From Candidatus Omnitrophota bacterium (GTDB taxonomy: Bacteria > Omnitrophota > Gorgyraeia > JAHJTE01), in assembly GCA_020058285.1 (NCBI GenBank), contig JAGVEL010000006.1, forward strand, positions 1 to 33,777: a stretch of DNA of 33,777 nucleotides, given 5' to 3'. Below the pieces are notes generated by a model. That model did no database searches. It was not told the origin of the DNA and worked only from the letters and a program-made list of their open reading frames with translations. Within the stretch, counting starts at the first letter, position 1. Each line of letters starts with the position of its first letter. Made by a program: the position numbers and the translations under genes. Of the stretch, positions 966 through 19,275 are shown piece by piece.

Positions 966-1220
966 ATGGCCAAGAAAATGTTCAAAGTGGAACAGATAGT
1001 AATGATGCTGCTAGAAGCAGAGATGCATCTGGCAAAAGTACTTGTAGATCTCCGGAAGACAGAATATAATACGGTCAGGTCGCATAGTTCATTGAATTAC
1101 CAGCTTTCTGCTCCAGAAGCTATTAAGCCGGGATGGCTAGAAAATGCGGTTGTTCCCTCTCAAGAACTAGTACAACTTATGGGGGTAGGTCATTATCAAG
1201 GAGATTCAGGGCTTCCTTAA
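966..1220 (+). pseudogene. Internally deleted IS3-type transposase remnant (OrfA N-terminus joined to OrfB C-terminus)
   Basis: N-terminus KKMFKVEQIVMMLLEAEMHLAK resembles IS3 OrfA. It is followed directly by LRKTEYNTVRSHSSLNYQLSAPEAIKPGW, typical of the IS3 OrfB C-terminus. The HTH region and the DDE core between them are missing. Confidence 0.75.
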
Positions 1221-1460: not shown

Positions 1461-2882
1461 ATGGCAAAAATACTGTTTATTCATAAACTTTGGTATGAAT
1501 CCATTGGCGTAATGCAGATTTCTGCTGTAGTGAAAAATGCTGGCCACGAGTCATACCTTTACATGGATAATGGTAGTGCATATAAGTTGATTCAGTTTAT
1601 TGGGGAAATTAAACCAGATATCATTGGCTATTCGATAATGACCGGACAACACCACTGGGCTTTAGAAACCGCTTCAATTTTAAAAAGAAAATTGAAAACA
1701 ATTAAACCTCTCATTGTTTTTGGGGGGCCTCATCCTACTTTTTCGCCTGAGATTATAGATAATGAGCCGGTTGATATTATTTGCCGCGGGGAAGGAGAAG
1801 GAGCAGTTTTGGATTTGATGAATTCTATCGAAAACAAGAAAAGTTTTTTAAATATTCCAAATCTTTGGGTCAAAAAAAACGGAGAAATTATTAAAAATAT
1901 ATTAAGGCCCTTGATAAAGGATTTGGATTCTTTGCCTTTTTTAGATCGGGACCTTTTTTATAAATATAGTTATTTTCGGGATAACCCGAACAAAATGGTG
2001 ATGGCTTCAAGGGGTTGCCCTTTTAATTGCTCTTTTTGTTTTAATGAAAAGTATAGGGAGCTTTACAACATAAAAGGATCAAAGATTAAAAGGAGAGGTT
2101 ATCAAAATGTGATAGAGGAGATAGAGTTATTAAAAAGGAAATATAAGAAGACGAGAATCGTTAGATTTCATGACGATATCTTTACTTTTGATAAAGAATG
2201 GCTTGATAATTTTTTAAAGCTTTACAAGAGAAAAATAATGCTTCCTTTTATGTGTTATATAAAAGCCGGGTTGGATGACGAGGAAACGATAAAAAAACTC
2301 TCAGAAACTGGTTGCGTAGGCGTTACCTTTGGGATAGAAACCGGGAACGAAAATCTACGGTTTCGCCTGTTAAATAAAAAAATTTCTAATAGGCAAATAT
2401 GTCATACAGCTTATTTATTAAAGAAATACAAAATTCCTTTTTATGTTAATAACATCTTTTTTATTCCCGAAATTAGCATTGATAATGTATGGGAAACTGT
2501 AGCAATGAATCAGAAAATAAAAGCAGATTATGTTGTGGCCAGCATCTTTCAACCTTTACCAGGCACATCAATCAATGAAAGCTTATTCAAAACTGGAGCA
2601 ATAAAAGAAGGTTACTTAAATGACATAAAAAATATTTATTCTTTCTCCGCAGTTAAATCCAAGAATGAGGACATAGAGAAAAATATTTACTATCTTTTCT
2701 ATTTATTAGTAAAATTTCCATGGATAACCCCTTTTGTCAAGCAAGTGATTAAATGCAGGCCCAATATTTTATTTTCATTAATTTTTAAAATAACAGCAGG
2801 TATTGACTATTGGCTGCGAAACAGATTGAGCTTTGCGAGATTCCTTAGAGAAGCGTATCATCATTATGACTTTAGAGGGTAA
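1461..2882 (+). CDS. B12-binding-domain radical SAM protein (rSAM-1)
   Basis: N-terminal cobalamin-binding-like Rossmann region (GGPHPTF...ICRGEGEGAVLDL); radical SAM CxxxCxxC motif in ASRGCPFNCSFCFNEKYR; FGIETGNE downstream. Confidence 0.9.
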   Translation: MAKILFIHKLWYESIGVMQISAVVKNAGHESYLYMDNGSAYKLIQFIGEIKPDIIGYSIMTGQHHWALETASILKRKLKTIKPLIVFGGPHPTFSPEIIDNEPVDIICRGEGEGAVLDLMNSIENKKSFLNIPNLWVKKNGEIIKNILRPLIKDLDSLPFLDRDLFYKYSYFRDNPNKMVMASRGCPFNCSFCFNEKYRELYNIKGSKIKRRGYQNVIEEIELLKRKYKKTRIVRFHDDIFTFDKEWLDNFLKLYKRKIMLPFMCYIKAGLDDEETIKKLSETGCVGVTFGIETGNENLRFRLLNKKISNRQICHTAYLLKKYKIPFYVNNIFFIPEISIDNVWETVAMNQKIKADYVVASIFQPLPGTSINESLFKTGAIKEGYLNDIKNIYSFSAVKSKNEDIEKNIYYLFYLLVKFPWITPFVKQVIKCRPNILFSLIFKITAGIDYWLRNRLSFARFLREAYHHYDFRG

Positions 2883-4233
2883 AAAAATTATACTTTTACG
2901 ATTGGTTGCGGATGATGTTATTGATGGGCCGCATCCAAGAAACAAAATTCCTCCCCTAGAACTTAAGTATATCGAAGCCCTGCTGAAAGAAATGAAAGGT
3001 ATAAATGTGGAATTATTCGATCAAATTATTTATAAATATAAAGATACTGAAGTTATAGATTATATTAATAAAGTCAACCCGCAGATTATTTTAATTTCTT
3101 TTACGACCCTAGAAAGACACAAAATAGAAAAACTTGTCAAATCGTGTAAGAAAGACAACACTTTATTTGTTGGCGTTGGACAGGGCGTAGCTTTCTATAG
3201 CGATAGATACAGAGATTGGTTAATGGGGTATTTTGATTTGCTTATCCCGGGAGAGCCAGAAATAATCTTTATCTCATGTATAGATAAGATTTTAAACGGA
3301 TATAATTCCTATGAATTACGTAAGGAAATATGGGATAGTTATCTTCGAGAAGGGGCGTATATAGTAGAAGATGTAAATCTTTTACCTATCCCCAAATACG
3401 AACCTTTAGAAATAAAGAATTATGGATCTATATATCCCGTTAGAATTAATAAAAGATTAAAATGGGGTTACGTGCTCTCTAGCAGAGGTTGTCCGCATAG
3501 TTGTATCTTTTGCAGTCCATGCATGAGAAAATCATATGGACATAAGATTAGATATAGAAATGTTAGTTCCGTTATCGATGAGATAGAAGAGTTGATTGTA
3601 TTGGGCGTTAATATAATTTCTTTTGAGGATGATGATTTTACATATTCTTCTAGGCAAGTAGAATTGGTTTGCAGAGAGATAATAGAAAGAGGTATTAAAA
3701 TAAATTGGATAGCACATGCTAGAGTCGATGAGATTACCTTGGGTTTAATCAGGATTATGGAAAAAAGCGGGTGCAAACTGTTAAGATTTGGAATCGAGTC
3801 TGGCCAAGAGAAGGTAATAAATTGTATTAGAAAAGGAAATGGAGCGACATGGAGGGTACAAACAGAAGAGGTGTTTTTTCAGCTAAAAAAATCTGGGATA
3901 GATGTCAGCGCCATGTTTATGGTAGGGAATCCTAAAGAAACAAAAAAGGATATTGAAGACACAATAGAGTTTTCTAAAAAAATAAAACCGGATTCTATAC
4001 AAGTTGCTTTATTTGAAGTTTATCCTGGATCTTCTTTATTCAGTTCTTTAAACCAAGAAGACAGGGATAAGATACTTGAATATCCTTCGTATCATTATAG
4101 AGATATTTCGTTGAACATGAGCAGCTTAAAAAAAGAAGAGTTGATGTGTTTACACAGTAAATTCTATAGAGATTTTATATTAAGATTACAGTACCTTTTT
4201 TTACATATAGGTAAATTTTTTTATTTTATTTAA
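2866..4233 (+). CDS. B12-binding-domain radical SAM protein (rSAM-2)
   Basis: SSRGCPHSCIFCSPCMRK (CxxxCxxC); FGIESGQEKV; PGEPEIIF in the N-terminal B12-like domain. ATG at 2866 preferred over the TTG at 2833 in the track; overlaps rSAM-1 by 17 nt. Confidence 0.88.
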   Translation: MTLEGKKIILLRLVADDVIDGPHPRNKIPPLELKYIEALLKEMKGINVELFDQIIYKYKDTEVIDYINKVNPQIILISFTTLERHKIEKLVKSCKKDNTLFVGVGQGVAFYSDRYRDWLMGYFDLLIPGEPEIIFISCIDKILNGYNSYELRKEIWDSYLREGAYIVEDVNLLPIPKYEPLEIKNYGSIYPVRINKRLKWGYVLSSRGCPHSCIFCSPCMRKSYGHKIRYRNVSSVIDEIEELIVLGVNIISFEDDDFTYSSRQVELVCREIIERGIKINWIAHARVDEITLGLIRIMEKSGCKLLRFGIESGQEKVINCIRKGNGATWRVQTEEVFFQLKKSGIDVSAMFMVGNPKETKKDIEDTIEFSKKIKPDSIQVALFEVYPGSSLFSSLNQEDRDKILEYPSYHYRDISLNMSSLKKEELMCLHSKFYRDFILRLQYLFLHIGKFFYFI

Positions 4234-4297
4234 AAAATCAGGCAGTTTTTAGGAGTTTGCTTAAGGGGTTGTTCAAGTTTTCAATTTTTCGAAAAAT

Positions 4298-5542
4298 ATG
4301 TATATAAGAATTTTACCTCGCCGGAAAGTCGAAATCTCATTGAAAGAAGTCAGCGCGCTATGGAAATCTATATGTCTAAGAGGTTGGAGAGCGGAAATAC
4401 AGAAGGAAAATTTTGAAAAAGAATTCGCCCGTTATATAGGGGTTAAACATGCGATAATTGTTCCAAGCGCAAGAGCGGGTCTTTCTATTCTTTTAGATAG
4501 TTTAGAGTTTCAAGAAGGCGATGAAATAGTGCTTTCTTCTTACAATTACCATGTTATACCAGCTTTAATAAAGCTCAAAGGGTTTAAACCTGTATTTATT
4601 GATATAGATCCTGACAGCTGGAATATCAATACGGCATTAATTGAAGGTTATATTACACCTAAAACACGGTGTATAATAGCCACTCATCTTTTTGGAAAGG
4701 CTTGTAATATAGAAGAGATAGTGTGTATTTGCAAAAAATATAGTTTGATCCTCATAGAAGACGTTGCCCATTCCTGCGGAGCGGTATATAGGGGCATAAA
4801 GCTTGGAAAATTCGGAGATGCTGCTTATTTCAGCTTTGGTACGGGAAAGGCATTAGTTGCTTTTGGAGGAGGCATGCTTGTGACCGACAAGGATTCTATT
4901 CATACAAATGTCCGAGAAAGACTGGGTAATATAACCTACAGTAAACACAACCTCAGGGCTTTTATAAAAATAGCCGCTGAAGTCTATTTTACTAATAAAG
5001 CAATCTTTTCTCTTTTCGTATATCCGGTTATAGTAATTATGAACTTTATCGGTTCTGATCTTGTAGATAGATTGATTGAAGACAAATACACTTTAGAAGA
5101 CGGGAAGATAGTTGGAAACCTGCCTTTTTATGACTTTCAAGTCGCTGTCGGCCAGGTACAATTAAAACGGCTTGAGGGGCTGAACAATAAACGGATATGT
5201 AATGCACGTTTATTATCCAAACTGCTCAGCGATATCGATAAAATAAAGGTTCCCCCTGTGGCTGATGATGGAACAGATGTTGCTTTATACTATTGTGTAG
5301 TTACGGATAAAATAAAGGCATTAAGAAAGTATCTTACTTTGAGAGGGGTGGACACAAAAAGAGGCACGATTAAGGCATGTTCTGCGCTAAATTTTTTCAA
5401 TAATTCAACAAGATGTCCTGTTGCAGAAAAAATTTCGGACAACGTTATTGAATTGCCATGCTATCCGGATCTTACTATAAGGGATATTTATTATCAGGCG
5501 AATCTCATACGAAAGTTTTATGGTAGCAAGTTATTGAAATAA
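4298..5542 (+). CDS. DegT/DnrJ/EryC1/StrS-family PLP aminotransferase
   Basis: HAIIVPSARAGLSILLDSL, PVFIDIDPDSWNI, IEDVAHSCGAVYRGIKLGKFGDAAYFSFGTGKAL; typical fold-type I sugar aminotransferase segments. Confidence 0.88.
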   Translation: MYIRILPRRKVEISLKEVSALWKSICLRGWRAEIQKENFEKEFARYIGVKHAIIVPSARAGLSILLDSLEFQEGDEIVLSSYNYHVIPALIKLKGFKPVFIDIDPDSWNINTALIEGYITPKTRCIIATHLFGKACNIEEIVCICKKYSLILIEDVAHSCGAVYRGIKLGKFGDAAYFSFGTGKALVAFGGGMLVTDKDSIHTNVRERLGNITYSKHNLRAFIKIAAEVYFTNKAIFSLFVYPVIVIMNFIGSDLVDRLIEDKYTLEDGKIVGNLPFYDFQVAVGQVQLKRLEGLNNKRICNARLLSKLLSDIDKIKVPPVADDGTDVALYYCVVTDKIKALRKYLTLRGVDTKRGTIKACSALNFFNNSTRCPVAEKISDNVIELPCYPDLTIRDIYYQANLIRKFYGSKLLK

Positions 5543-5552
5543 GCTTTTCAAA

Positions 5553-5876
5553 CATGTTTTAAGAAGGCACAAAACGGAAGAATGTAACTATTCAGTAATT
5601 ATACCGATATATAACGAATCTGGTTATGTTTTACTTCTATGTAACGCGCTTCGTGATGTAATGGATAATTTGCACGAATCATACGAGATAATTTTTATAA
5701 ATGATGGTTCAATTCCGGCAGGCATAGATTATTTAGAAAACAAGATGGATAAAAGCATCGTCAGAATTATCAATCCTCCTAAGCATGTTGGCCAGGTAAA
5801 TGTTTTGGCGAGCGGTAAAGTATGCTTTGGTTGTTCTTTTTGGACGGGAGCCATTGTCAGCTATAAAAAATTTTAG
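5553..5876 (+). pseudogene. Truncated GT2 (dolichyl-phosphate-mannose-synthase-like) glycosyltransferase fragment
   Basis: In-frame reading RHKTEECNYSVIIPIYNESGYVLLLCNALRDVMDNLHESYEIIFINDGS is a GT2 N-terminus. No plausible start codon lies before SVIIPIYNES, and the frame ends after about 100 aa, without the catalytic C-terminal half. Confidence 0.7.
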
Positions 5877-5887
5877 AGGGAAATGAA

Positions 5888-6922
5888 ATGCAAGCTGCGG
5901 TAATTATTCCTGTCACTAGGCCAAAATCTCTTTATCTATGCATGCAAGGACTGATGCGTCAGACATTCCCTCATGATCAATTTGAAATTATTTTAATTAA
6001 AGATAGTGATATGATTTTGGAATTGGAGAATGCGGATATAAAAATAACCCAGATTAAAGAGGATATATTACTTCCGACTTTTCGGAGAAACTTAGGTGTT
6101 AAAAAGACAGATGCTAATATATTAGCATTCTTAGGCGATGATACTCTTCCTCCTGTAGGCTGGCTCCAGAATGCTATCTGGCATATAGAAGAGGAAAAAA
6201 TAGACGGGGCCAGCGGTCCCTTTTTGCATTTACAAAATAATTTATCCTTGGGGAGTAGGTTAGCTAATGCTACCAGGGAGTCTTTTTTTTTAGAAGGAGA
6301 TGAAATTTGCAATATTCATGAAAAAAAACTAGTGAAGTTTTATAATATTCCATTATGTAATGTTGTGATTAAAAGAGAGGTTTGGGATTCAGTCGGAGGA
6401 TTTAATGAGGTAGTCGCGAATTACCATATGGACGATTGCGAATTTTTTTACCTGGCCAATAAGAGAGGGTATAAATTTTATAATATCCCTCAAATCGCAG
6501 TTCAGCATGCTATTGAATCATTTCCGCTAGGGTACTTGAAAAAGAAATTTACCACGCGGTTCTATACAGGAGTAAACGCCGCTATCTTTAATGAAATTTA
6601 CCGCGAAATCCCCGTTATACGTTTAGGATTCTTGGTCTATCCTTTTATAATTATTGTATTTTTATTAGTGATTAATAACTGGTTTAATATGGCAGTATTT
6701 CTTATAATTTATTTTGGATTAGCAATTTGGTTTTCTCGAAAGACGTTCACCAAGAATAAAAAAGTGTTTATATTGTTGCCCATAGTGTTTTTTCTAACTC
6801 ACCTGACAATTTTTATAGCATTTACTTCGGGCATCCTTTACTTTTTAATGAAAAAGAAGAGTTTCCAGGTAATTATTGAGAATAAAAAGATAAGATTAAA
6901 GAAGTGTCTGAATGCGGTCTGA
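5888..6922 (+). CDS. GT2-family glycosyltransferase with C-terminal transmembrane segments
   Basis: AAVIIPVTRPKSLYLCMQGLMRQTFPHDQFEIILIKD; FLGDDTLPPVGWL; MDDCEFFYLANKRGYKFYNIPQIAVQH; hydrophobic C-terminus. Confidence 0.85.
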   Translation: MQAAVIIPVTRPKSLYLCMQGLMRQTFPHDQFEIILIKDSDMILELENADIKITQIKEDILLPTFRRNLGVKKTDANILAFLGDDTLPPVGWLQNAIWHIEEEKIDGASGPFLHLQNNLSLGSRLANATRESFFLEGDEICNIHEKKLVKFYNIPLCNVVIKREVWDSVGGFNEVVANYHMDDCEFFYLANKRGYKFYNIPQIAVQHAIESFPLGYLKKKFTTRFYTGVNAAIFNEIYREIPVIRLGFLVYPFIIIVFLLVINNWFNMAVFLIIYFGLAIWFSRKTFTKNKKVFILLPIVFFLTHLTIFIAFTSGILYFLMKKKSFQVIIENKKIRLKKCLNAV

Positions 6923-6952
6923 AGTTGTGGAATCTACTAGAGGATATTTACC

Positions 6953-8452
6953 TTGATAAACAATAACCCCAAGCGCATATTTAACTTTCCAGTTTTAATT
7001 ATTATCTCGGCAGTTCCAATTTTTGGGTTAGCCATTTGGTTCATCGCTGATCCGGTAAGAGCTGCTCGGCTGGATAGGTATATTCTTTACCATGTCGATG
7101 AGTTATTAAGATATGCCTACATAAAAATGTCCCTTTACAATCACTGGATATTTTTAAACCCATATGCAAAATTGGGTTATGTGTTGATCAATTCCTTATT
7201 TTTACATATCCTATTCTTGGGTATATCTTCGCTGAGAATAGTCAATTCTATTTTTTCTTTGGGTGTACTTTTTTCGATATATAAAATAACCCAAAAAATA
7301 AAATTTTCCGAAAGCGGTTCATCACTAGCGTTACTTTTAACATTGACCTTCCCAGTATATTTTCTGACCTCTATCTCGGCATTAGTAGAGATCATGTTTT
7401 GTTTTGTTCTTATTTACGCGGTTTATTTATTGTATTGCAAAAGATATTTTTTATCCTCTTTAATGGCTGCCCTTCTTCCGGTTATTAGGCAAGAAGGTGT
7501 GGTATTTTTGTTGATCTGGCTATTAGTGTTACCTAAAAAACTTAAAATCAGATTTGGATTGTTTATACCGTTGCCCTTTTTGATCTGGAGCATGTTGAAT
7601 AAGATCTTATTAGGGCATCCATTTTTTTACACTTTTTTTTGCAATTTGCCTGATCAAGCCCCGCCTAATTCTGTAGCTCCATTATCTCAATTTTCCCATC
7701 TCGTCGGTGTATTAGGTATTCATCCCATATTTATCAGCTGTTGCCTAGGATTGGTGGTTAGTTATAGAAAGATTAAATACCGGTATCTGTTTATCCCCTT
7801 TATTTCTTATCTAGCAATAATTTTAGCGGCAAATATTCTGCATTTAATAGACGCCAAGGCTTTCTCGCGGGAAATAAGATTTTTGATACCCTTAATTCCT
7901 TTTATGGCAATCTATGGGGCTTCTGTCTTTGAATGCCTGTTCGCTGATAGAAAAACAATAAAAAAATATCTTTTGTTATTTAGTGTAGCAATATTACCAT
8001 TTATTACTATTTATCAGATAGGACAATTGCAGAAAGACCCTACCGTTATTGGTGATTCTCTTAATCCAGAAGAGGAGATTTTGATAAAAGAGATAGGTTG
8101 TTGGTTAAATGCGTATATGGAAGCAAATAAAGTTACAAATATTTATATTCCCGGAGATTTAGTTCCGGACAAGATTATACGCCGTTTGTGGATCTATTTA
8201 CGGGGTAATATAACATATTATGCTATAATTGGGCTCATGGAATCTTACAAGCCAAAAGGGCATCAGCCATTAGATATGGCCACATATGTTATTGTTCCGC
8301 CAGAGAAAGGCATGAGAGGAATATTCATTACAAAGAGACAATATGATAAAACTGAGAATACGCTGAGTGAAGTTGATTACGTATCGTTGAGAACCGAGGC
8401 CTCGTTGCCTTTGTTTATTTATCTTATACAGAAAAGTGGTAACTACAGATAA
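6953..8452 (+). CDS. Polytopic GT39/ArnT-like membrane glycosyltransferase (paralog A)
   Basis: Many predicted TM helices; clear paralogy to 17782..19275 (RAARLDRYILYHVDELLRYAYIKMSLYNHWIFLNPYAK; LLPVIRQEG). TTG start. Confidence 0.65.
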   Translation: MINNNPKRIFNFPVLIIISAVPIFGLAIWFIADPVRAARLDRYILYHVDELLRYAYIKMSLYNHWIFLNPYAKLGYVLINSLFLHILFLGISSLRIVNSIFSLGVLFSIYKITQKIKFSESGSSLALLLTLTFPVYFLTSISALVEIMFCFVLIYAVYLLYCKRYFLSSLMAALLPVIRQEGVVFLLIWLLVLPKKLKIRFGLFIPLPFLIWSMLNKILLGHPFFYTFFCNLPDQAPPNSVAPLSQFSHLVGVLGIHPIFISCCLGLVVSYRKIKYRYLFIPFISYLAIILAANILHLIDAKAFSREIRFLIPLIPFMAIYGASVFECLFADRKTIKKYLLLFSVAILPFITIYQIGQLQKDPTVIGDSLNPEEEILIKEIGCWLNAYMEANKVTNIYIPGDLVPDKIIRRLWIYLRGNITYYAIIGLMESYKPKGHQPLDMATYVIVPPEKGMRGIFITKRQYDKTENTLSEVDYVSLRTEASLPLFIYLIQKSGNYR

Positions 8453-9521
8453 GAGGGCAAAAGGGGGATTTTTTTTGTTTATTGTCGCTCCAATAAGTAG
8501 AGTCGCGGAAGTAACCTCTGTTATTGAAGCAGGGGCTGATGAAATATATTGCGGATTGTTGGTTAACGAGCAATTGGATAGTTATGCCAATGTTAATTGT
8601 CTTAATCGTCGGGCCGAAATCTCATCTAACCTTACAAACTATGAGGAGCTTAAAGAAGTTATCAGAATAGCTCGCTCGAAAAATATCCCGGTCAATCTTA
8701 CTTTAAACGAATTTTACGATCAAGCTCAGGTCTTTATGGCTTTGAGGCAATTAGAAAAAAGCATGGAGTGTGGCATAGACAGGATTATTGTGGCAGATAT
8801 CGGACTTCTATCTGAAATTAAAAAAAGAAAATATCCAAACTTGAAATTACATATTAGTTCTTGCGCCTCTGTTTTTAATTCTGAGACCGTAGAGTTTTAC
8901 AAAATGTTTAATCCTTCTAGAATGATACTTAATAGACAACTTACCCTTTCTGAAATTGAACATTTAAAGAGATCTTTCAGTAAGCTGGAAATGGAGGTAT
9001 TTATTTTGAATGAAAGATGCTATAACATCGATGGATTCTGCACTTTTCTCCATGGGAGATTTTCTCCCATCTACAATAACTTTACACGTCTGGCATTGAA
9101 TATAATGCAGAATAGAATTATAGAATATATCCCACGCGGTATATTGCAAGTATTGCATAGGCATGTCGTGAGAAATAGCCTTACCTGTTGTTCACCTTAT
9201 GCAGCGCAATATGGCCTGGCAGGAGCTAATATTGAGGCAGGAAGCCATAAAGAAAAGGTGGTTTTTAGTAAGCCGGATTCATTTTTACAAGCCTGTGGCA
9301 TTTGCGCTTTGTATGATTTTTATAAAATAGGGCTAAAGTTCTTTAAGATTTCAGGAAGATCTTTATTGGCCAATAAAACAGCGGACATTCGTTTAGTAAA
9401 AGAGGCAATCAGCATTTTACAAAAAGAGCAATTGGTGAAAGAAAAATTTTGTATAAAAATAAAAGAGCTTGTTCAACAAAAATATTCCAGGACATGTTCT
9501 CCCGAATATTGTTATTATTAG
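8436..9521 (+). CDS. U32-family protein, UbiU/PrtC-like
   Basis: EAGADEIYCGL and ANVNCLNRRAEISSNLTNYEEL; cysteine pattern ERCYNIDGFC ... LTCCSPY ... CGICALYDFY typical of [4Fe-4S]-binding U32 proteins. Confidence 0.82.
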   Translation: MVTTDKRAKGGFFLFIVAPISRVAEVTSVIEAGADEIYCGLLVNEQLDSYANVNCLNRRAEISSNLTNYEELKEVIRIARSKNIPVNLTLNEFYDQAQVFMALRQLEKSMECGIDRIIVADIGLLSEIKKRKYPNLKLHISSCASVFNSETVEFYKMFNPSRMILNRQLTLSEIEHLKRSFSKLEMEVFILNERCYNIDGFCTFLHGRFSPIYNNFTRLALNIMQNRIIEYIPRGILQVLHRHVVRNSLTCCSPYAAQYGLAGANIEAGSHKEKVVFSKPDSFLQACGICALYDFYKIGLKFFKISGRSLLANKTADIRLVKEAISILQKEQLVKEKFCIKIKELVQQKYSRTCSPEYCYY

Positions 9522-9577
9522 GATAGTACTGCATTTAAAAAATAAAGAAACTCAAGGACTTCATAAAGCTTGAAATT

Positions 9578-10366
9578 ATGGAAAAGGCTGTCTATTTTTC
9601 AGACATCAATAAGTTAAGATCGCATAACTTTGATTATGATAGGATATATTTTGGCAATGAATTTTGCGATGAGCTGATACCATCCTTAGACGACCTTAAA
9701 TTCGCTATTTCTGTAGCTAAAGAAAAAAATAAAGACCTTAGCTTTGTTACTTGTTATGTCAGCGAATATAAAATAAAAAAGTATTACCATCTTCTTAATA
9801 CCTTGGCAGGATTAGCCCCTCGTAGTGAAGTAATCATTAATGATTGGGGTGTATTAGGGATATGCCTTCAAAATAATCTTACGCCAGTTTTAGGGAGGTT
9901 ATTAGTAAGGCAGAAACGAGACCCGCGCATCTCGTTTTTTATGAAGCTACTCCCGGATTTATCAAGATTACGCGTACATCAGACAGGATTGAACAATTAT
10001 TTTAAGGACTTTTTGAAAACGCAGAGCATAAATAGAATAGAATTAGATAATTTAATCCAAGGAATAGATATGAATGAATTGCAGGATGTAAATTTTGGAT
10101 ATTCCGTTTATATACCGTATGGGTATGTAACTACCACAAGGATATGTTTCTTTCGTAATAAAAATATAAGCAAAAATAAAAGGTTTAGTATACTGCCGTG
10201 TATTAATAAATCAGAATGTGGTTTGGCTAAATTATATAATAAGCAGATAAAAGACAATTTATTTATGAGAGGTAATACGATATTTTTTAAAAATACTTCC
10301 CAATCTTTTTTAAAGTTGGATTCCAGAATCAACAGGATTGTGCATGAACCTGAGATACCAGATTAA
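9578..10366 (+). CDS. Short U32-like protein, UbiV-like partner
   Basis: IYFGNEFCDEL near the N-terminus; EVIINDWGVL; later Cys cluster RICFF...ILPCINKSECGL; directly follows the UbiU-like gene. Confidence 0.65.
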   Translation: MEKAVYFSDINKLRSHNFDYDRIYFGNEFCDELIPSLDDLKFAISVAKEKNKDLSFVTCYVSEYKIKKYYHLLNTLAGLAPRSEVIINDWGVLGICLQNNLTPVLGRLLVRQKRDPRISFFMKLLPDLSRLRVHQTGLNNYFKDFLKTQSINRIELDNLIQGIDMNELQDVNFGYSVYIPYGYVTTTRICFFRNKNISKNKRFSILPCINKSECGLAKLYNKQIKDNLFMRGNTIFFKNTSQSFLKLDSRINRIVHEPEIPD

Positions 10367-10497
10367 AAATAAAATCAAAACCAATTTTTTGCTTGTTTTG
10401 CGAATATTTCGCAGGTATATGCAGCTGAGCGGATTGATGTAAATTATGCCAGAGTAGCAGAAGAAAAAATCAGAGGCCTTACGATATACATAGGAAA

Positions 10498-11544
10498 ATG
10501 TTTAGTAAATTAATAATTTTGATCTCACTTTTATTATGCTGTGTTATATTATCTATATGGCATTGCTATTTTAAAAGAGGGGCAAGATTAACCTTTACTT
10601 TTTTCTTTTTTGCTTTTCTTTATATTTTGAGATGGGTATTAAAAAATATGGTTAGTCCTTCGCTTTTGTTAAAAACAGCCAAACAATTGACCTTAGGTGG
10701 ATTGTTTACAAATTCTGATCCGGCATTTAATTGGGTGTATATCTTTTTAGTGGCTGTTATTACTTTATTGGAATGGATATTTTTATTTTATCTAGGTTGG
10801 TTTGTGGCAGAGAAAATTATGCAGCGCTTTAGTTTTTTTCAGAGGCGTCTTTTTCCTACCTTGTTGTTAAGTTCCTTGGCAACAGCGAGCTTTCTATATC
10901 CCATTGAAGCAATTGGGCATAATCTTGGCTGGTGGCGATGGCAATCATTTATTCAAGTGTCTTATGATGTATTTTTTATAGATTGTCCTCCCCATGCTTT
11001 AAAGTCAGGATTTTATTTTATTTTGTACTTTCTAGCAGCCTATTTTTTGATCGAGTGCTCAAAGTTTAAACATAGGAATTGGAAAATGATATTTTTTATA
11101 TTACCATTTGTGCATCTCTGGACAATAAGATTTTTTGGTAATAGTTTACCGAGGGTAGTTGAGCGCATGGGGATTTTTCTAATAGTGGTGGCGCTAACAT
11201 TTCTTAGTACCTTGGAATTGGAAAATGTAAATCCGGGCAATCTTTATAAGTTTAGAATTATAGACAGGATTTTTTCCTTGCTAGTAATTTCTATATTGTC
11301 CATTTTATGTTTTACGGTTATATTTATAACTAATAAACCAGTGCTTATTTTTACCCTCTTACCAGCATTATTTTTTTATTTGTTTTCTATGAAAAATATG
11401 TCTCTGGGGGTAATTTTCATTTTTTGTATTCTGGCATTTCTTATGGGTAAAACTGTAGCAACTGTTAGCTTAATTCCGGTATCGATATTTTTTATTTTTA
11501 AAATATGCGACTATAGCGAAAGGGATTTGATAAGATGGACTTAA
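10498..11544 (+). CDS. Polytopic membrane protein, tandem paralog 1 (unassigned family)
   Basis: CYFKRGARLTFTFFFFAF, LYPIEAIGHNLGWWRW, AAYFLIECSKFKHRNWKMIFFILPF; shares blocks with the next three ORFs. Confidence 0.85.
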   Translation: MFSKLIILISLLLCCVILSIWHCYFKRGARLTFTFFFFAFLYILRWVLKNMVSPSLLLKTAKQLTLGGLFTNSDPAFNWVYIFLVAVITLLEWIFLFYLGWFVAEKIMQRFSFFQRRLFPTLLLSSLATASFLYPIEAIGHNLGWWRWQSFIQVSYDVFFIDCPPHALKSGFYFILYFLAAYFLIECSKFKHRNWKMIFFILPFVHLWTIRFFGNSLPRVVERMGIFLIVVALTFLSTLELENVNPGNLYKFRIIDRIFSLLVISILSILCFTVIFITNKPVLIFTLLPALFFYLFSMKNMSLGVIFIFCILAFLMGKTVATVSLIPVSIFFIFKICDYSERDLIRWT

Positions 11545-12548
11545 AAATAGTTCTTCTAATATGTTTTTTTAGTATTTTTATATTTATTGTTCATTCATAT
11601 TTTAGCAGAGGGTTTAGACTGACATTTAATTTTTTCTTTTTCGCCTTTCTCGTAGCTATTATCAAAGAAGGACCGATGATGATAAATGGAATATTAGTTA
11701 AGAATCCGACTATGCCGTATGAATTCTTAACAAAGAATACTTCTGTAATGATCGAAACGATGCTTGCGATAGTAGGGTGGGTTTTTACTATTTATTTGGG
11801 TTGGTATATTGCTAATAGGATTGCGCAAAGGCTAGGCGTATGGGAAAATCGGATTTTTCCGGTCGTATTTATAAGTGGCCTAGTGACAGCAAGCGTTGGT
11901 TATGCAGTAGAAGCTACAGCTATAGGGATCGGGTGGTGGCAATGGACAATAGAGGACATAAGATTAGCCGGATTTTTGGCTGGGGGCGTGCCATTGATCG
12001 TTTTTGAAACATGGACGCATTTTCCTACACAATATTTGCTTATGCCTTATTCTATTATAGAATGCTCAAGATTCAAAAGGGCCAGCTGGAAAGGTATATT
12101 TTTTCTTATCCCTTTTGTGCATAGCGTTAGTACGCAGTTCAGACCAGAACTAATAAGAACCAGCATCGAGCATATTGCTTTAATTATTCTTTTCATTCTT
12201 GCTGTTATAAGTCCATTGCGCTTTGAGTATTCAGGGGTTCGACGTCCGTCTCTAAGATGGAATTTGAACTTGAAATTATTGGAATCGCTGCCGATGTTGA
12301 TTATAATGATGTTGGTATTGATTTTGGTTTTTCTCGATTTGATTAAGATACATAATGCGCAGTTACTTATATCGCTATTACCAGTAATATTTTTTATATT
12401 ACTTGCAATCAAAAGGATACCTTTATTGTGGATAGTATTTTTTGCTTTGTTATGCCCATTGATATTAAATAGGCAGGCACTAGTGGCGGTAGTACCGGTT
12501 ACTGTTATATTAGGATTTAAAATTTTAGCAAGAATTAAGGCTGGTTAA
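11535..12548 (+). CDS. Polytopic membrane protein, tandem paralog 2
   Basis: SYFSRGFRLTFNFFFFAF, YAVEATAIGIGWWQW, YSIIECSRFKRASWKGIFFLIPF; 10-nt overlap with paralog 1. Confidence 0.85.
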   Translation: MDLKIVLLICFFSIFIFIVHSYFSRGFRLTFNFFFFAFLVAIIKEGPMMINGILVKNPTMPYEFLTKNTSVMIETMLAIVGWVFTIYLGWYIANRIAQRLGVWENRIFPVVFISGLVTASVGYAVEATAIGIGWWQWTIEDIRLAGFLAGGVPLIVFETWTHFPTQYLLMPYSIIECSRFKRASWKGIFFLIPFVHSVSTQFRPELIRTSIEHIALIILFILAVISPLRFEYSGVRRPSLRWNLNLKLLESLPMLIIMMLVLILVFLDLIKIHNAQLLISLLPVIFFILLAIKRIPLLWIVFFALLCPLILNRQALVAVVPVTVILGFKILARIKAG

Positions 12549-12564
12549 GTAGAAAGATAATCGC

Positions 12565-13560
12565 ATGAATCAGGCATTGTTGATTAATTTTTGCGGTATT
12601 GGGATTATTACACTTATCCTGCATTCCTATTTTAAAAGAGGGCTAGCTTTAACATTAAATTTTTTTTTATTTGCGTTTATGTTGACTTTTACCAAAGGCG
12701 GAGAGCATAGTTTTAAATTCATGATTTTGGCTAAAGCTGGCCCTCAGACTATATTTCCTGCGGTAATTTCTACCCTGATATGGATATTATCATTTTACCT
12801 CTCATGGTGCATAGCTGAGAAGGTTGTTGAAAGAATGCCTTATTTTAAAAATAGAGTTTTTCCCGTGTTATTCTTTGCTGGGATATTTGTTGCTACTTTC
12901 GCTTATGCTATTGAGGCAGCAGCAATAAATATTGGCGGGTGGAATGCCCCAGTTGTTAATGGTAATGAGTTTTTACTTATCCCCTTTTATGTAGTCAAGA
13001 GGCAGTTTTATTTTTCTGTATATTTTTTGGCAGCGTATTTTTTAATAGCGTGTTCTGAGTATAAAAATAAAGACTGGAAGATAGTTTTCTTTATATTGCC
13101 ATTTATCAATACCTGGATTCCGCAATTTTTTGGCTTAGGCCTGGCACAATTTATTAAAGAGATACTAACGTTGATCATTCTCCTTTTGCTTGCTTTCAGG
13201 AGTCCTTTACGCTTTTATCCTGCGGGCACTAAACAATCTAGTGGAGGGGTTTTTTTAAAGACAGAATTAGTAGATTTATTGCCGGTAGCAGTTATGGTAA
13301 TATTGACTTTCATTTTATTTTTTATTGATACAGTTAAGTTACACGATATGAGACTGCTTGTGTCGTTACTACCTATGGGATTTTTTATATTACTTGCTAT
13401 TAAGAGAATTCCTTTATTCTGGATAACATTTATTGCTCTTTTGTGTCTTGTGGCATTAAAAAAGCTAGCAATACCAGCTATGCTGCCAGTTGGATTATTA
13501 GTTCTTTTTCAGTTGATCATTAAATCTTCCTTTATAAAAAATAATTCTTTCTCTCAATGA
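12565..13560 (+). CDS. Polytopic membrane protein, tandem paralog 3 (GWW motif altered)
   Basis: SYFKRGLALTLNFFLFAF, YAIEAAAINIGGWNAP, AAYFLIACSEYKNKDWKIVFFILPF; ends LLVSLLPMGFFILLAIKRIPLF. Confidence 0.85.
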   Translation: MNQALLINFCGIGIITLILHSYFKRGLALTLNFFLFAFMLTFTKGGEHSFKFMILAKAGPQTIFPAVISTLIWILSFYLSWCIAEKVVERMPYFKNRVFPVLFFAGIFVATFAYAIEAAAINIGGWNAPVVNGNEFLLIPFYVVKRQFYFSVYFLAAYFLIACSEYKNKDWKIVFFILPFINTWIPQFFGLGLAQFIKEILTLIILLLLAFRSPLRFYPAGTKQSSGGVFLKTELVDLLPVAVMVILTFILFFIDTVKLHDMRLLVSLLPMGFFILLAIKRIPLFWITFIALLCLVALKKLAIPAMLPVGLLVLFQLIIKSSFIKNNSFSQ

Positions 13561-14573
13561 CTGTTTTACACCTATTTTCTTTTGCGTTTATAGGGCTTGT
13601 CTTACTCGTAGTCCATTCATATTTTAAACGTGGATTTCGACTAACCTTGAGTTTTTTTCTATTTTCTTTTATTGTTGGAATGAGAAAAGAAGCTGGTACT
13701 TTCTTGGGGCCAGCTTTGTCTAACATGAGATACCCCACACCTTTTATATATACTACCAATTACCCGTTGCTATTTTCTGTACTGAATACAACTATTGGTT
13801 GGATGCTTGCTTTTTACCTCTCATGGTGCATTGCCGAAAAAATTGTTGAGAGGTCAGCTCGTCTTCAAGGCAAGATTTTTCCTACATTGTTGTTTGCCGG
13901 TATGGTTATTGCCGCGCTTTCGTATGCCATCGAAGCCACTGCTATAAATATTGGTTGGTGGAAGTGGGTTTTTTTTGATCTACACTTAGCCGGATATCTA
14001 GTTGGCGGAGTACATCTTTTTGCGCTCAGCGCATGGTTTTATTTTGCCCTTAATTTTTTAACCCCATATTTTCTGATAGAATGCTCGCGCTTTCGTAAAA
14101 CCAATTGGAAATGCATATTTTTTCTTATTCCTTTTTCGAGGACCTGCACAATGCTTTTCCTTGGTTCAGATTTACCGCGCATGACTCACGAGTTTGGCAC
14201 ATTCTTTATACTGATGACGCTTGTTATCACTAATCCACTATCTTTTAATTATCCAAACTTTAAAGAAAGATTAGTTGGTGATTCTCTTGTGCGCAGGATG
14301 GTAGATATTATTCCTTATATTGTGATGTTTATCATTTTGGCTGTACTTATTTTCATCGATATCATCCAGATAAAGAATCCTCATCTACTGATTAGCCTTT
14401 TTCCGCTAGCCGTTTTTATCTTTTTGAGCTTACAGAAGATACCCGTACGGTTAATTGTATTATTTACTTTAGTAATAGGATTAATTTTCGGCAAAGTCGG
14501 GATTTCAGCATGCCTACCTGGGTTGATTTTTTTATGCCTGGATTACTTTTTAAGTTTAAGACACACCCTTTAA
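13557..14573 (+). CDS. Polytopic membrane protein, tandem paralog 4
   Basis: SYFKRGFRLTLSFFLFSF, YAIEATAINIGWWKW, TPYFLIECSRFRKTNWKCIFFLIPF; ATGA overlap with paralog 3. Confidence 0.85.
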   Translation: MTVLHLFSFAFIGLVLLVVHSYFKRGFRLTLSFFLFSFIVGMRKEAGTFLGPALSNMRYPTPFIYTTNYPLLFSVLNTTIGWMLAFYLSWCIAEKIVERSARLQGKIFPTLLFAGMVIAALSYAIEATAINIGWWKWVFFDLHLAGYLVGGVHLFALSAWFYFALNFLTPYFLIECSRFRKTNWKCIFFLIPFSRTCTMLFLGSDLPRMTHEFGTFFILMTLVITNPLSFNYPNFKERLVGDSLVRRMVDIIPYIVMFIILAVLIFIDIIQIKNPHLLISLFPLAVFIFLSLQKIPVRLIVLFTLVIGLIFGKVGISACLPGLIFLCLDYFLSLRHTL

Positions 14574-14576
14574 AAT

Positions 14577-15944
14577 ATGAAAAAGATATTATTAGTATCC
14601 TTGGCAATGGATAAATTCAGCTATTCAGCTGAAGGGAGATTTAAGTTTAAGTATATGCAACGCCGACCTTTACTTGGACTATTGTATATATTCTCAGCCA
14701 TAGAGTCTAGAGGAGTAGAGTGTGATTTTTTAGACCAGTCAATAGGCAATTTTTCTGTGGAAGATTTAATCAACCGTATTAATATCCAGGATTATCTTTT
14801 TGTTGGATTCTATGCTCAGTTGTTAGTAAAAGATAAAGTGATTGAATATATAAGAGCTATCAAAGAAAAATGCTTAGATAAGAATATTATTGTAGGAGGT
14901 CCGGGTTATTTATGTTACGAAGAATTTTTAGATAATGGCTGTGATATTGTTTGCCGGGGTGAAGGAGAGCTTACTATTACCGAGATCGTTGATTATATGC
15001 AAGGAAAGAAAAGAATCGAGGAGATAGACGGCATTGTTTATAAAAGAAATGGCGTTATTAATTATAATAAAGACAGAGAGTTAATCAGTAATTTAGACTC
15101 TGTCTCTTTTCCTTTGTGGCACAAAGTAGACATTGGTTTGTATTATGATTATTCTGTATTACCTATGCAGAAGCCCTTTGCGGTTATGATTACTTCCAGG
15201 GGGTGTTTGTTTCAGTGCGCTTTTTGCAGCTCACCGTTTTTATGGAGAAATATTTTCCGGAGTCGTTCAGTTGAAAATGTCATTCAAGAGATCGATATCC
15301 TTGTGCTTAGGCATGGCATTAGATATATTATTTTTCAAGACGACGTATTTGGCATAGATAATAACTGGCTTAAAGAATTTTGCAATTCTTTGATAAGTAG
15401 AGGTTATAGAAATTTGAGATGGATGTGTATATTGCACCCCCTCACCTTAAAAAAAGAATCTTGTTCACTCATTAAATTAATGAAGAAAGCAGGGTGTAAT
15501 TTATTCACCTTTGGCCTTCAATCTGCTAACCCACTTATTTTGGAAAAAATTGGACGAAACCCCATCGAGCCTAGGGCATTAAAAGATATAATTAAAATTG
15601 CAAATAGGCTTGGCATTATGACCTCCGTTGATTTTATACTTGGTTTTCCATTGGAGACAAAAGATACTGTCCGTGAAAATATTAATTTTGCATTGAATCT
15701 AAAGCCACATCTTGTCAATTTTCATCCTTTACTACTGGAACCGGGTTCAGAATTAGAAAGGGACTACAAGAAATGTGGCTTTTCTGAAGAAGAGTTGCTT
15801 AGACTCTGTTCTAGTGCTAACCGGGAGTTTTATTTTAAGATTCAAAATATATTCAGGATTATGAAGTTCATGTTTAGAGAAAATGTGTTTCTTTTTTTAA
15901 AAATAGCGAAGTTTTTTGTAGCCCTGAGATATTATCTAAAATAA
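14577..15944 (+). CDS. B12-binding-domain radical SAM protein (rSAM-3)
   Basis: VGGPGYLCYEEFLDNGCDIVCRGEGELTI; ITSRGCLFQCAFCSSPFLWR (CxxxCxxC); FGLQSANPLILEKIGR. Confidence 0.9.
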   Translation: MKKILLVSLAMDKFSYSAEGRFKFKYMQRRPLLGLLYIFSAIESRGVECDFLDQSIGNFSVEDLINRINIQDYLFVGFYAQLLVKDKVIEYIRAIKEKCLDKNIIVGGPGYLCYEEFLDNGCDIVCRGEGELTITEIVDYMQGKKRIEEIDGIVYKRNGVINYNKDRELISNLDSVSFPLWHKVDIGLYYDYSVLPMQKPFAVMITSRGCLFQCAFCSSPFLWRNIFRSRSVENVIQEIDILVLRHGIRYIIFQDDVFGIDNNWLKEFCNSLISRGYRNLRWMCILHPLTLKKESCSLIKLMKKAGCNLFTFGLQSANPLILEKIGRNPIEPRALKDIIKIANRLGIMTSVDFILGFPLETKDTVRENINFALNLKPHLVNFHPLLLEPGSELERDYKKCGFSEEELLRLCSSANREFYFKIQNIFRIMKFMFRENVFLFLKIAKFFVALRYYLK

Positions 15945-16156
15945 TATGATCTCCAAGATGCGTCAGATATCGATCTCTTTGTGGCTTTATTAAGTATTTC
16001 ATGAATATGGCTGTGCAGCTACTTCAGGTAAGGAATGCCGATATTGTTATAATCTAGCACGTAAAGTTGCGCGAATACGCGAATAAATTAAAAAATGATA
16101 GAAGATTATAAATCTTATCGATAAAGTTTAGTGTCTATAGATATATTTAAATATTT

Positions 16157-17773
16157 ATGAGTCTTATACTTAAAATTAAGAATATTTTTTATAACAAAAT
16201 ATACAGTAAGTATAAAATTGAATTATTTTTATTCAGTTTGATGTTTTTTCTAGGATTGCCGTTAAGATTGTATAAGTTGAGTAATAAAAGTCTATGGTTT
16301 GATGAGGCAGATGTGGTTCTGGATTCTGTAAATATATTAGATTCTTTTAAGGTATTAGAACTCCATAATCCAATTATAGGTTATAAAATATTTGTTTTTT
16401 ATTGGCGTCAGATTTGCCCATATATACATGAGTGGATGCTTCGGTTGCCCTCGGTTATCTTTGCAATAGCAGCAATATTTTTTATATATAAATTAGCTGC
16501 TTTATTGTTTAATAAAGATGTTGGAATAATAAGTTCTTTTTTGCTTTCCATTTCCCCCGTGCATATATATTATTCACAAGAAGCAGTTGCCTATTCATTT
16601 TTAGCATTTAGTACTATAGTAACCGTTTATTGTTTGATGCGATTTACTAGAGACGGGCATCCCGTTTTTTTCTACTATTATATTTTATTAAATATAATAA
16701 ATATATATACGCATCCCATAATGTGGTTTCTATTTTTAATAGAAAATATTATTGTTATTCTTAGAATAAAAAAATTTGAAGGAATTTACAGGAAAATAAT
16801 TTTATGTAATTTAATAGTAGTTATTATTTCTATACCATGTTTTTATTCGGTTTTTTTAGGAAGAAATTTTCTATTTGTGAAAAACAATTTTTATTTTGAA
16901 CGAACAGCAGGGTATATACCTCTTCCCACTTGGAAAAGTTTTTATCTTTTATTTAAAAATCTTACCATAGGCTATAATGCTCCAGATTTTATTTATCCGG
17001 CAGGCATATTCTTGTTTTTAATATTATTTCTTAAAGGAGTAGGGCAGCTGATTAAGAGAGAGAATGGAATCATAGTATTATTAGTTACATTATTGCCTCC
17101 TTTTATGGTATTTTTTATTGCTAGGGTCACCTCAATTTCCTATTATTTGGATAGGTATTTTGTTCCATTAGCGCCATTTTTTTATATCATAATTGCTTTT
17201 GCTATATGGAAGTTTAATGAAAAGAATATTAAAATTTTATTGATAGCCAGCACCTTGGTTTTATCAACAATTAGTTTAGGCAATTACTATCGCGATATTC
17301 TTCCTTTTGACGTTATAGCTGTACCTACAAAAAAAGAGATAAGAGAAGCGGCTGCTTATATAAACCAATCCTTAGAAAAAAAAGATATGATATTGCATAC
17401 TTGTCGAAATACGGCCTTACCTTTTGAATATTATTTTGATTTTTATTTTAATAAAACACAGGATGTTTTCAAAGATTATCCAGAGCGTAAAACTAATAAA
17501 CAGTATATTATATTTTGTCAGAAATTGGAAAATTCGATGCAATTATATAAATATATGATGCGAGATAAAAATCTGCAAAGCGAATACGTTCCTGTAGACA
17601 ATTATGAAATTAATAACGGTAGAGTTTTTTTGGTATTTTCATCATGGAAATTTGATGATTCAAGTATACCTGAGATATATGCCCTGCAATGGCTTGAGAA
17701 AAAATACACAATGGAAACGAAAAAGAATTTTAACGGTATTTCAGTCTATCTATTCACTAAGAGGGATATTTAA
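16157..17773 (+). CDS. GT39/ArnT-like polytopic membrane glycosyltransferase
   Basis: LPLRLYKLSNKSLWFDEADVVLDSV (LWxDEA signature); SPVHIYYSQEAVAYSFLAF; many TM segments and a soluble C-terminus. Confidence 0.8.
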   Translation: MSLILKIKNIFYNKIYSKYKIELFLFSLMFFLGLPLRLYKLSNKSLWFDEADVVLDSVNILDSFKVLELHNPIIGYKIFVFYWRQICPYIHEWMLRLPSVIFAIAAIFFIYKLAALLFNKDVGIISSFLLSISPVHIYYSQEAVAYSFLAFSTIVTVYCLMRFTRDGHPVFFYYYILLNIINIYTHPIMWFLFLIENIIVILRIKKFEGIYRKIILCNLIVVIISIPCFYSVFLGRNFLFVKNNFYFERTAGYIPLPTWKSFYLLFKNLTIGYNAPDFIYPAGIFLFLILFLKGVGQLIKRENGIIVLLVTLLPPFMVFFIARVTSISYYLDRYFVPLAPFFYIIIAFAIWKFNEKNIKILLIASTLVLSTISLGNYYRDILPFDVIAVPTKKEIREAAAYINQSLEKKDMILHTCRNTALPFEYYFDFYFNKTQDVFKDYPERKTNKQYIIFCQKLENSMQLYKYMMRDKNLQSEYVPVDNYEINNGRVFLVFSSWKFDDSSIPEIYALQWLEKKYTMETKKNFNGISVYLFTKRDI

Positions 17774-17781
17774 AAATATCG

Positions 17782-19275
17782 GTGAAAAACAAATCGCCTA
17801 ATTTATTTCAATCATTTTGTGGCTGGGTTAACCTGCCAGGCTATTGCGTAATCTCTTTTTCCCTGATTTTAATTATATTTTTGATATTCGATTGGCTTGT
17901 GGCTACTTCTTTACGAGCAGCTAAAATAGATCATTATATTTTATTCTCATTGGCTGAGACCTCCCGTCTTTTTTATGCAAAAACCGCCTTGCACAATCCT
18001 TTTGTATTTCTTAATCCTAATGCCAAACCTATTTATTCAATAATTTCTGCTATGTTTATCTTTATTTTTCCATTAGGCTTGTTTTCTTTAAAAGTATTAA
18101 ATTCCCTGCTTTCCATTGGCACTCTGGTGATTCTCTATAAATTAATAAGAAAAATGGGGTATGGAGATTTTGTAGCTACGATAGCCATAATACTTACCCT
18201 AACATTTCCTTTGTTTTTCTTGCTTTCAATATCGGCTTTGACTGAGATCTTATTTTGTTTTTTCTTGACCCTAGCTTTTTATTGCTTCTATTTGAAAAGA
18301 TATTTTAGTTCCGTTTTATTAATTTCTTTATTGCCGCTTATTCGACAGGAAGGAGCCCTGTATATCTTTATTATGTTATTTCTTCTGTTAAAAGAGAAAA
18401 AAATATACTACGCGTTCATTTTACCGATACCTTTGCTGGTTTGGATTTTATTGAATTTCTTTCTGTTAGAGCATTCTTTTATTTATCCACTTTTTGTATG
18501 TGTTGATTTACCGGGACCAACTGCTAAAAGCGACATAATGTCATTGGCTGAATTAAAAAATTTTCTTCCCGCGATATTTTGTCATCCTTTATTCTTCCTA
18601 TTTCCTATCGGATTTATACTTGCGATCTCAAAAAAACATTATTTACCTATTATAATCTCGTTAATATGCCAGAGCCTTTTTTTTATTATTGCCGCGATTA
18701 TTCAATTTTTAATTACAAAGCAAGTTTCTTATGCCTTTCGTTATATTGTACCTCTGATTCCTTTTATGGCTCTCATAACTGCAGGGATTTTTAATAACCT
18801 TGTCTTGGGGAAAAAATCAAAAATTATTGTTGTAGTTTTTATGTCAATTGTTTTAATAGGAATACTTATAAACAGAATAACTGCACTCCAAAAACATCCT
18901 AGAGTTGTTGCTGAAAGCATTACAGAAAAACAAGAGAGAGCAATAGAGGAAGCCGTTGTTTGGCTAAAAGCTTTTATTAAAGAAACTGGGATTCAGTATA
19001 TCTTTTATTCAGGGGATATGACTGACAATAAAATGATAAGGAGACTAAAAACTTATTTGGTTGATAGTATAGCAATGTATCCGGTTAAAGAGTTTAGGGA
19101 AGTTTACGACCCAGTAACTTTTAAAATTATCGAGAGAGAGTTTCGTAATTCTACTCTTACGGGACTTGTTTTGTTACTTGATCCTGAAAGAGAGAAAGAT
19201 TTTATTTTAAGTAAAAAAATAGAATCTTTAAAAAATTTTCCAGATATTCCTGTTTACCTGTATAGAAAATATTAG
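17782..19275 (+). CDS. Polytopic GT39/ArnT-like membrane glycosyltransferase (paralog B)
   Basis: Collinear similarity to 6953..8452 (RAAKIDHYILFSLAETSRLFYAKTALHNPFVFLNPNAKP; LLPLIRQEGALYIF). GTG start. Confidence 0.65.
   Translation: MKNKSPNLFQSFCGWVNLPGYCVISFSLILIIFLIFDWLVATSLRAAKIDHYILFSLAETSRLFYAKTALHNPFVFLNPNAKPIYSIISAMFIFIFPLGLFSLKVLNSLLSIGTLVILYKLIRKMGYGDFVATIAIILTLTFPLFFLLSISALTEILFCFFLTLAFYCFYLKRYFSSVLLISLLPLIRQEGALYIFIMLFLLLKEKKIYYAFILPIPLLVWILLNFFLLEHSFIYPLFVCVDLPGPTAKSDIMSLAELKNFLPAIFCHPLFFLFPIGFILAISKKHYLPIIISLICQSLFFIIAAIIQFLITKQVSYAFRYIVPLIPFMALITAGIFNNLVLGKKSKIIVVVFMSIVLIGILINRITALQKHPRVVAESITEKQERAIEEAVVWLKAFIKETGIQYIFYSGDMTDNKMIRRLKTYLVDSIAMYPVKEFREVYDPVTFKIIEREFRNSTLTGLVLLLDPEREKDFILSKKIESLKNFPDIPVYLYRKY

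Follow-up and report, generated by a model that had tools for sequence, protein, structure and literature searches.

A low-GC island of radical SAM, U32, glycosyltransferase and new membrane protein genes in an Omnitrophota genome: a candidate pathway for a membrane-anchored glycoconjugate

Gene content of the island

The window analysed here (33,777 nt) makes up one entire contig of a 1.24 Mb genome (93% complete) of a Candidatus Omnitrophota bacterium. The element in question is an island at positions 1461-19275, where 14 genes for proteins of 262-538 amino acids all lie on the + strand, as an earlier note, made from the DNA letters alone, had described. Most of these genes overlap or stand a few bases apart, and the biggest gaps between them are 345 and 212 nt. 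About half of the island length codes for multi-pass membrane proteins. The components are the following (E-values are given after Pfam and NCBIfam families; AF2, AlphaFold2).

1461..2882, + strand: rSAM1, B12-binding radical SAM protein 1 (PF04055, 5e-19; PF02310, 6e-17; CX3CX2C at residue 186; no DxHxxG)
2833..4233, + strand: rSAM2, B12-binding radical SAM protein 2 (PF04055, 2e-17; PF02310, 3e-7, just under the cut-off)
4298..5542, + strand: DegT/DnrJ/EryC1-type aminotransferase, amino-sugar type by family (PF01041, 1e-68)
5661..5876, + strand: gene fragment of a family 2 glycosyltransferase (GT2), apparently decayed (PF00535, weak, 0.047)
5888..6922, + strand: GT2 glycosyltransferase with C-terminal membrane segments (PF13632, 5e-7; PF00535, 1e-6)
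6953..8452, + strand: GTC1, GT-C-like polytopic membrane glycosyltransferase (NF047440, LA_3751/LA_3752, 7e-9; weak, 35 of 200 bits)
8436..9521, + strand: U32a, UbiU-like U32 protein (PF01136, 2e-29; hhalign to E. coli UbiU, prob 99.4)
9578..10366, + strand: U32b, U32-fold partner with UbiV-like cysteine layout (no Pfam family over cut-off; AF2 model)
10498..11544, + strand: M1, new polytopic membrane family (no Pfam/NCBIfam match; paralogue alignment)
11535..12548, + strand: M2, same new family (no Pfam/NCBIfam match)
12565..13560, + strand: M3, same new family (no Pfam/NCBIfam match)
13557..14573, + strand: M4, same new family (no Pfam/NCBIfam match; AF2 model; remote CruF-like match)
14577..15944, + strand: rSAM3, B12-binding radical SAM protein 3 (PF04055, 3e-20; PF02310, 1e-10)
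16157..17773, + strand: PMT_2/GT-C type glycosyltransferase (PF13231, 30.2 bits, cut-off 26.1)
17782..19275, + strand: GTC2, second GTC1-family GT-C-like protein (PF02366, weak; 34% identical to GTC1)

The gene labels of the earlier note mostly hold, including the three B12-radical SAM proteins, DegT, GT2, U32 and one PMT_2 over its cut-off. The other PMT assignment is weak, and the gene at 9578-10366 proved to code for a second U32-like protein, which corrects the first labels.

The proteins rSAM1-3 carry both B12-binding and radical SAM domains, which places them in the B12-binding radical SAM superfamily; the B12 domain of rSAM2 lies 1.4 bits under the cut-off, and the start of this gene is more likely the ATG at 2866 than the TTG. 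All three have CX3CX2C, as do HpnJ, BchE and the ladderane-type family TIGR04072, and HpnJ and BchE are their nearest NCBIfam matches. However, they fall short of every curated NCBIfam family, scoring 80-140 bits against cut-offs of 360-580; they stand as unnamed subfamilies, and none has DxHxxG. Most B12-radical SAM enzymes methylate; BchE and HpnJ are counted among the exceptions, and the oxygen introduced by BchE derives from water (PMC13142503).

The DegT protein is a clear member of PF01041 (232 bits, cut-off 19.8). The decayed fragment between DegT and GT2 is 36% identical to an intact GT2 protein of 255 amino acids from the M gene cluster of another genome, G234 (L031:1128-1895). The multi-pass protein at 16157-17773 resembles the GT39-like GT-C/PMT proteins well enough to pass the PF13231 cut-off, whereas GTC1 and GTC2 remain under all cut-offs.

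Recurrence of the gene set

If these genes form a pathway, then we can ask: do they lie together in other genomes as well? The synteny search proposed in the earlier note gives a positive answer. The 384 Omnitrophota genomes include five with M genes, each from a different family and each giving 3-5 matches. In the three genomes with readable surroundings (G016, G198 and G234) they lie beside genes for B12-radical SAM, GTC1-type GT-C and PMT proteins.

The G016 cluster consists of four B12-radical SAM genes, three intact M genes, two sulfatase genes and a broken M copy, followed by GTC1-type and PMT genes; its sulfatase-family genes stand in tandem at L028:13160-16005, between M genes. G198 has three M genes, GTC1-U32a-U32b in the same order as in the window, PMT, three B12-radical SAM genes, further U32 genes and a PEMT/ICMT methyltransferase. 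At least eight tandem radical SAM-like genes adjoin this cluster (C5:62000-93000; L061, L099), seemingly a very large radical SAM region. In G234 the M genes are spread over several contigs and accompanied by GTC1, PMT, GT2, U32 and B12-radical SAM genes, and a 3 kb contig of G067 bears M3, M4 and rSAM3 at 74-87% identity.

GTC1 relatives occur in G016, G198 and G234 and in the M-negative G125. A scan of 232 genomes detected the family in three, all M-positive; G125 possibly lies outside this sample. A scan for M in a named-genome collection, with patterns reaching fairly close relatives only, returned only Omnitrophota records.

In the sister clusters of G198 and G125 we also detected a Wzt-like ABC protein, and G125 has in addition an ABC-2 type permease and a WecA-like protein (both by inspection). 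These genes recall O-antigen and other surface glycan loci with ABC export. The island in the window differs in having none of them, and its heavy radical SAM content is unusual for such loci.

The M membrane proteins

The tandem genes M1-M4 code for proteins of 331-348 amino acids that are 31-38% identical to M2 and match no Pfam or NCBIfam family. The AF2 model of M4 is multi-pass, with a predicted local distance difference test (pLDDT) score of 82.6 and a predicted template modelling (pTM) score of 0.86.

In profile comparison, M against Omnitrophota PF04240 (CruF) proteins gave prob 46-59, and hhalign of M with three CruF-like Omnitrophota proteins scored 32-35, well over the scores of a null set made up of unrelated polytopic proteins (n=71; mean 15.8, standard deviation 2.4, maximum 23.1), whereas classic CruF sequences scored 13-18. 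The residue E126, invariant in 15 M proteins, aligns in hhalign with an Asp of the CruF-like proteins, and in both groups the acidic residue shortly precedes a GWWxW/GYWxW motif in the aligned region. On the other side, M has no PF04240 match at E<=10, and the island genome and G016 have no PF04240 match at all; M is also longer (330-350 amino acids) and multi-copy, and four of the five M genomes (the island genome, G000, with G016, G067 and G234) have no phytoene synthase. These profile scores suggest that M is probably a remote homologue of the CruF-like branch rather than a member of PF04240.

Among the PF04240 loci themselves, CruF-like genes of two distant Omnitrophota (L036, L038) lie beside a gene like DNA polymerase IV (DinB), with no carotenoid genes nearby. 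A classic CruF-type gene of G044 (L035) stands beside two short lycopene-cyclase-domain-like genes, a genuine carotenoid setting.

The U32 pair

UbiU and UbiV form an O2-independent hydroxylase heterodimer with one 4Fe-4S cluster each, held by the cysteine motifs CX6CX16CX38C and CXnCX12CX3C, respectively (PMC6747719). The earlier note had listed a U32 gene and pointed to hydroxylation of the UbiU/V type, and U32a does match E. coli UbiU (15 family members used). The assignment of U32b is based on its fold, cysteine layout and pairing and not on its profile, which gave no significant match to UbiV (E=0.05): the AF2 model (pLDDT 79) matches the U32 protein 5d88 (E=3.5e-5, prob 1.0), and U32b adjoins U32a in 12 of the 14 loci examined, an adjacent pair of U32-fold proteins like E. 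coli yhbU/yhbV. U32a relatives were found in 28 of 384 genomes.

U32a has eight conserved cysteine columns, a CX6C pair and six more, kept in 14-15 of 15 sequences. The CX6C pair (C195 and C202, 15/15) corresponds to the first two Fe-S cysteines of UbiU; C251 is kept in 14/15 and C287 and C290 in 15/15, with a spacing unlike that of UbiU. In U32b, C30, C190, C208 and a third C-terminal cysteine are kept in 11-13 of 13 sequences with spacings X17 and X3 (X5 in the window protein), and this CXnC...CX3-5C layout resembles that of UbiV. There are also differences from the known pair. U32a reaches 94 of the 440 bits of the curated UbiU cut-off and has the extra conserved cysteines 287, 290, 354 and 359, and the island genome has no UbiA (PF01040). 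We regard U32a-U32b as a putative UbiU/UbiV-like heterodimer.

At three loci elsewhere (L144, L145 and L147) a U32a-type gene lies near genes like indolepyruvate oxidoreductase IorA/IorB, SPASM genes and FAD amine oxidase-like genes, which suggests a pathway linked to aromatic amino acids.

Prenyltransferase genes near M

In G016, G198 and G234, M contigs show linkage to one specific subtype of UbiA prenyltransferase. This subtype is present in 6 of the 384 genomes, and its association with M has a Fisher p=2e-5, not corrected for relatedness. The next gene after this UbiA codes for a radical SAM protein of the same type in all three genomes (NF045502 where scanned), and in G016 the UbiA gene is preceded by a farnesyl diphosphate (FPP) synthase gene over the cut-off.

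In G125, decayed UbiA and radical SAM genes lie beside B12-radical SAM, GT-C, PMT, GDSL, U32a-U32b and Wzt-like ABC genes. The UbiA gene and the adjacent radical SAM and SPASM genes (L136:16352-18683) are all frameshifted or broken by stops, a UbiA module in decay. The only UbiA found in G067 is on a separate contig beside Rnf-like and MenA/HepT-like genes. No phytoene/squalene synthase (PF00494, SQS_PSY) was found in the island genome, G016, G067 or G234, and carotenoid and hopanoid pathways were set aside for the island genome for want of a match to this family.

Composition, insertion site and flanks

The lower GC (guanine plus cytosine) content of the island relative to the genes on its right, claimed in the earlier note, was confirmed: 0.333 in the island, 0.414 in the right flank and 0.397 in the leftmost 1.4 kb, with GC at third codon positions also lower than in the right flank. 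The tetranucleotide profile, computed as had been suggested there, is homogeneous inside the island (distance 0.143) and far from the right flank (0.31-0.34). Against sampled contigs of its own genome the distance is 0.22-0.30, and against the M cluster of G016 (L028) 0.16, nearer than the island's own flank. This compositional step exceeds local fluctuation.

The right flank carries porin-like, CsaA, YkgJ-like, LPG_synthase_C, RNase T, PilZ, HhH-GPD, M20, PAC2 and HAD genes, two Ddl-like ligases and KamA. It is syntenic in G067 and G051, and YchF was additionally seen in G067. In G051 the porin gene is directly followed by a V-ATPase operon, and in G067 four pilin-like genes come between the two (names from reading of the sequences); neither genome has the island there. 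Since the matching site lacks it in both relatives, the block was either inserted at the porin site or lost from both. Absence from this site together with deviant composition qualifies the block as a genomic island, as judged at the right junction; its left boundary lies near the end of the contig, which is the whole window. The island is best read as a horizontally moved, modular locus.

Two remnants lie at the left edge, where the earlier note had placed recombinase and insertion sequence pieces. The pieces are present, but both matches are weak and below cut-off.

512..757, - strand: serine recombinase zinc-ribbon remnant (PF13408, E=6e-4)
966..1220, + strand: integrase/transposase core remnant (PF13683, rve_3, E=0.0018)

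M was not found in plasmids or viral contigs, so carriage by phage or plasmid left no sign. Mis-binning is an unlikely source of the GC step, since island and flank share one contig and since G067, with flank genes 71-91% identical, likewise carries AT-rich copies of M (74-82%). Searches of the window for Rfam families and tRNAs returned no matches, and promoter and terminator scans nothing above chance level.

Farther right (29644-32819), a lysine 2,3-aminomutase-like gene comes after a tandem pair of D-Ala-D-Ala ligase-like genes, an arrangement kept in G067 and G051. The YchF-like gene at 33043-33744 codes for 233 amino acids, as does its G067 counterpart; the usual YchF is longer.

A possible pathway and its alternatives

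Like genes cluster again in distant relatives, and for this reason the gene set is probably a real, undescribed pathway that decorates a surface lipid or glycan. Neither an absence of such co-occurrence nor a match to a characterised locus, the two outcomes that the earlier note had named as fatal to its proposal, was found when we looked. We detected no matching described locus and found no description of the set in Omnitrophota in the open-access literature; ladderane-like gene clusters have been reported from Omnitrophota metagenome-assembled genomes (PMC9902471).

Our preferred reading, with a probability slightly below one half (about 0.48), is that the island is a mobile modular cluster which uses O2-independent chemistry to build and tailor a membrane-anchored glycoconjugate, either a glycolipid or a lipid-linked glycan. 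Sugars or amino sugars would be made or attached by the DegT and GT2 enzymes, and at the membrane the GT-C proteins would draw on polyprenyl-phosphate donors for sugar transfer. Unactivated carbons may be altered by the three B12-radical SAM enzymes, through methylation or through oxidation or rearrangement of the BchE/HpnJ type, and the U32a-U32b pair may carry out hydroxylation without O2. The four M proteins could be membrane-embedded enzymes acting on the lipid part, perhaps by a CruF-like addition of water. Direct support extends to the gene set and its insertion, to the repeated occurrence of M beside GT-C and B12-radical SAM genes, to the pairing and fold of the U32 proteins and to the remote similarity of M to CruF-like proteins. 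The lipid or glycan modification pathway proposed in the earlier note gains from the recurrence of the set and from the UbiA and FPP synthase link in sister clusters, while a lipid product and a single pathway of all 14 genes are not supported yet. Its idea of lipid building in an anoxic organism lacks support as far as a prenyl part from this genome is concerned, with no UbiA or phytoene/squalene synthase found there.

Several observations weigh against the preferred reading. The main weakness is that the U32 pair, among the most informative parts of the set, also occurs in SPASM-rich clusters with ABC transporters and without M, which have more the look of peptide or small-molecule clusters. 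Of the other M clusters, G198 alone carries the pair beside M. The window has no gene that would define the substrate (UbiA, prenyl synthase, acyl enzyme, flippase or polymerase), and a 93% complete genome without UbiA and SQS_PSY matches points the same way. The M model found no fold match in the PDB or among viral models (best E 0.4-0.6), and against classic CruF sequences alone no homology of M is seen. The M/UbiA statistics also rest on few events, M being present in five genomes.

Could the cluster belong to a full prenyl-lipid pathway? A prenylated core would then come from FPP synthase and UbiA, M would hydrate the prenyl chain as CruF does with carotenoids, the U32 and B12-radical SAM proteins would hydroxylate and methylate it and the glycosyltransferases would glycosylate it, with the window island as the tailoring half and the UbiA half lost or past the contig end. 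The linkage of UbiA and its radical SAM neighbour to M in three genomes, the adjoining FPP synthase of G016, the M/UbiA association and the acidic E126 that M shares in position with the Asp of CruF-like proteins all speak for it. We nevertheless consider it unlikely as a whole, tailoring-half arrangement included, given the lack of UbiA in the island genome, the different contig of the G067 gene, the missing phytoene/squalene synthases and the negative comparison with classic CruF. Another candidate is a specialised metabolite, in which B12-radical SAM and U32 proteins modify a peptide or a small molecule derived from an aromatic amino acid before glycosylation by GT and DegT enzymes. About ten other Omnitrophota loci do pair a U32a-type gene with SPASM, often B12 radical SAM, DegT and FAD amine oxidase-like genes, IorA/IorB-like genes (by inspection) also occur there, and L028 holds a relative of SPASM maturases. 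In the island itself, however, no SPASM protein, ABC exporter or nonribosomal peptide or polyketide synthase gene was identified, in a survey that included no systematic search for precursor peptides, and the large share of multi-pass membrane proteins fits such a product poorly; we judge it improbable. Least probable of all is a hypervariable surface-polysaccharide region of unrelated genes, where the glycosyltransferases make a glycan and the genes for rSAM, U32 and M proteins ride along while serving other pathways. The low GC, the decayed GT2 fragment, the recombinase remnants and the varying composition of the clusters among genomes would suit it, but the unusual set of M, GTC1, PMT and B12-radical SAM genes recurs across families in differing gene orders, and M and UbiA, both rare families, occur together.

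The glycoconjugate reading has a more specific form: an undescribed anaerobic pathway, spread horizontally among Omnitrophota, that would yield a hydroxylated and methylated prenyl glycolipid by means of the new family of M enzymes, distant relatives of CruF, and of a UbiU/UbiV-like hydroxylase whose substrate would not be ubiquinone. In this detailed form we hold it to be doubtful.

To our knowledge Omnitrophota have no isolates, and little is understood of how their envelopes are built chemically. The recurring cluster, with an M family not described in Pfam or NCBIfam and an apparently repurposed UbiU/UbiV-type pair, offers specific genes that can be tested. If our interpretation is true, O2-independent hydroxylation by U32 proteins would reach beyond ubiquinone and tRNA/rRNA, and the cluster could point to where unusual anaerobic lipids or glycans come from.

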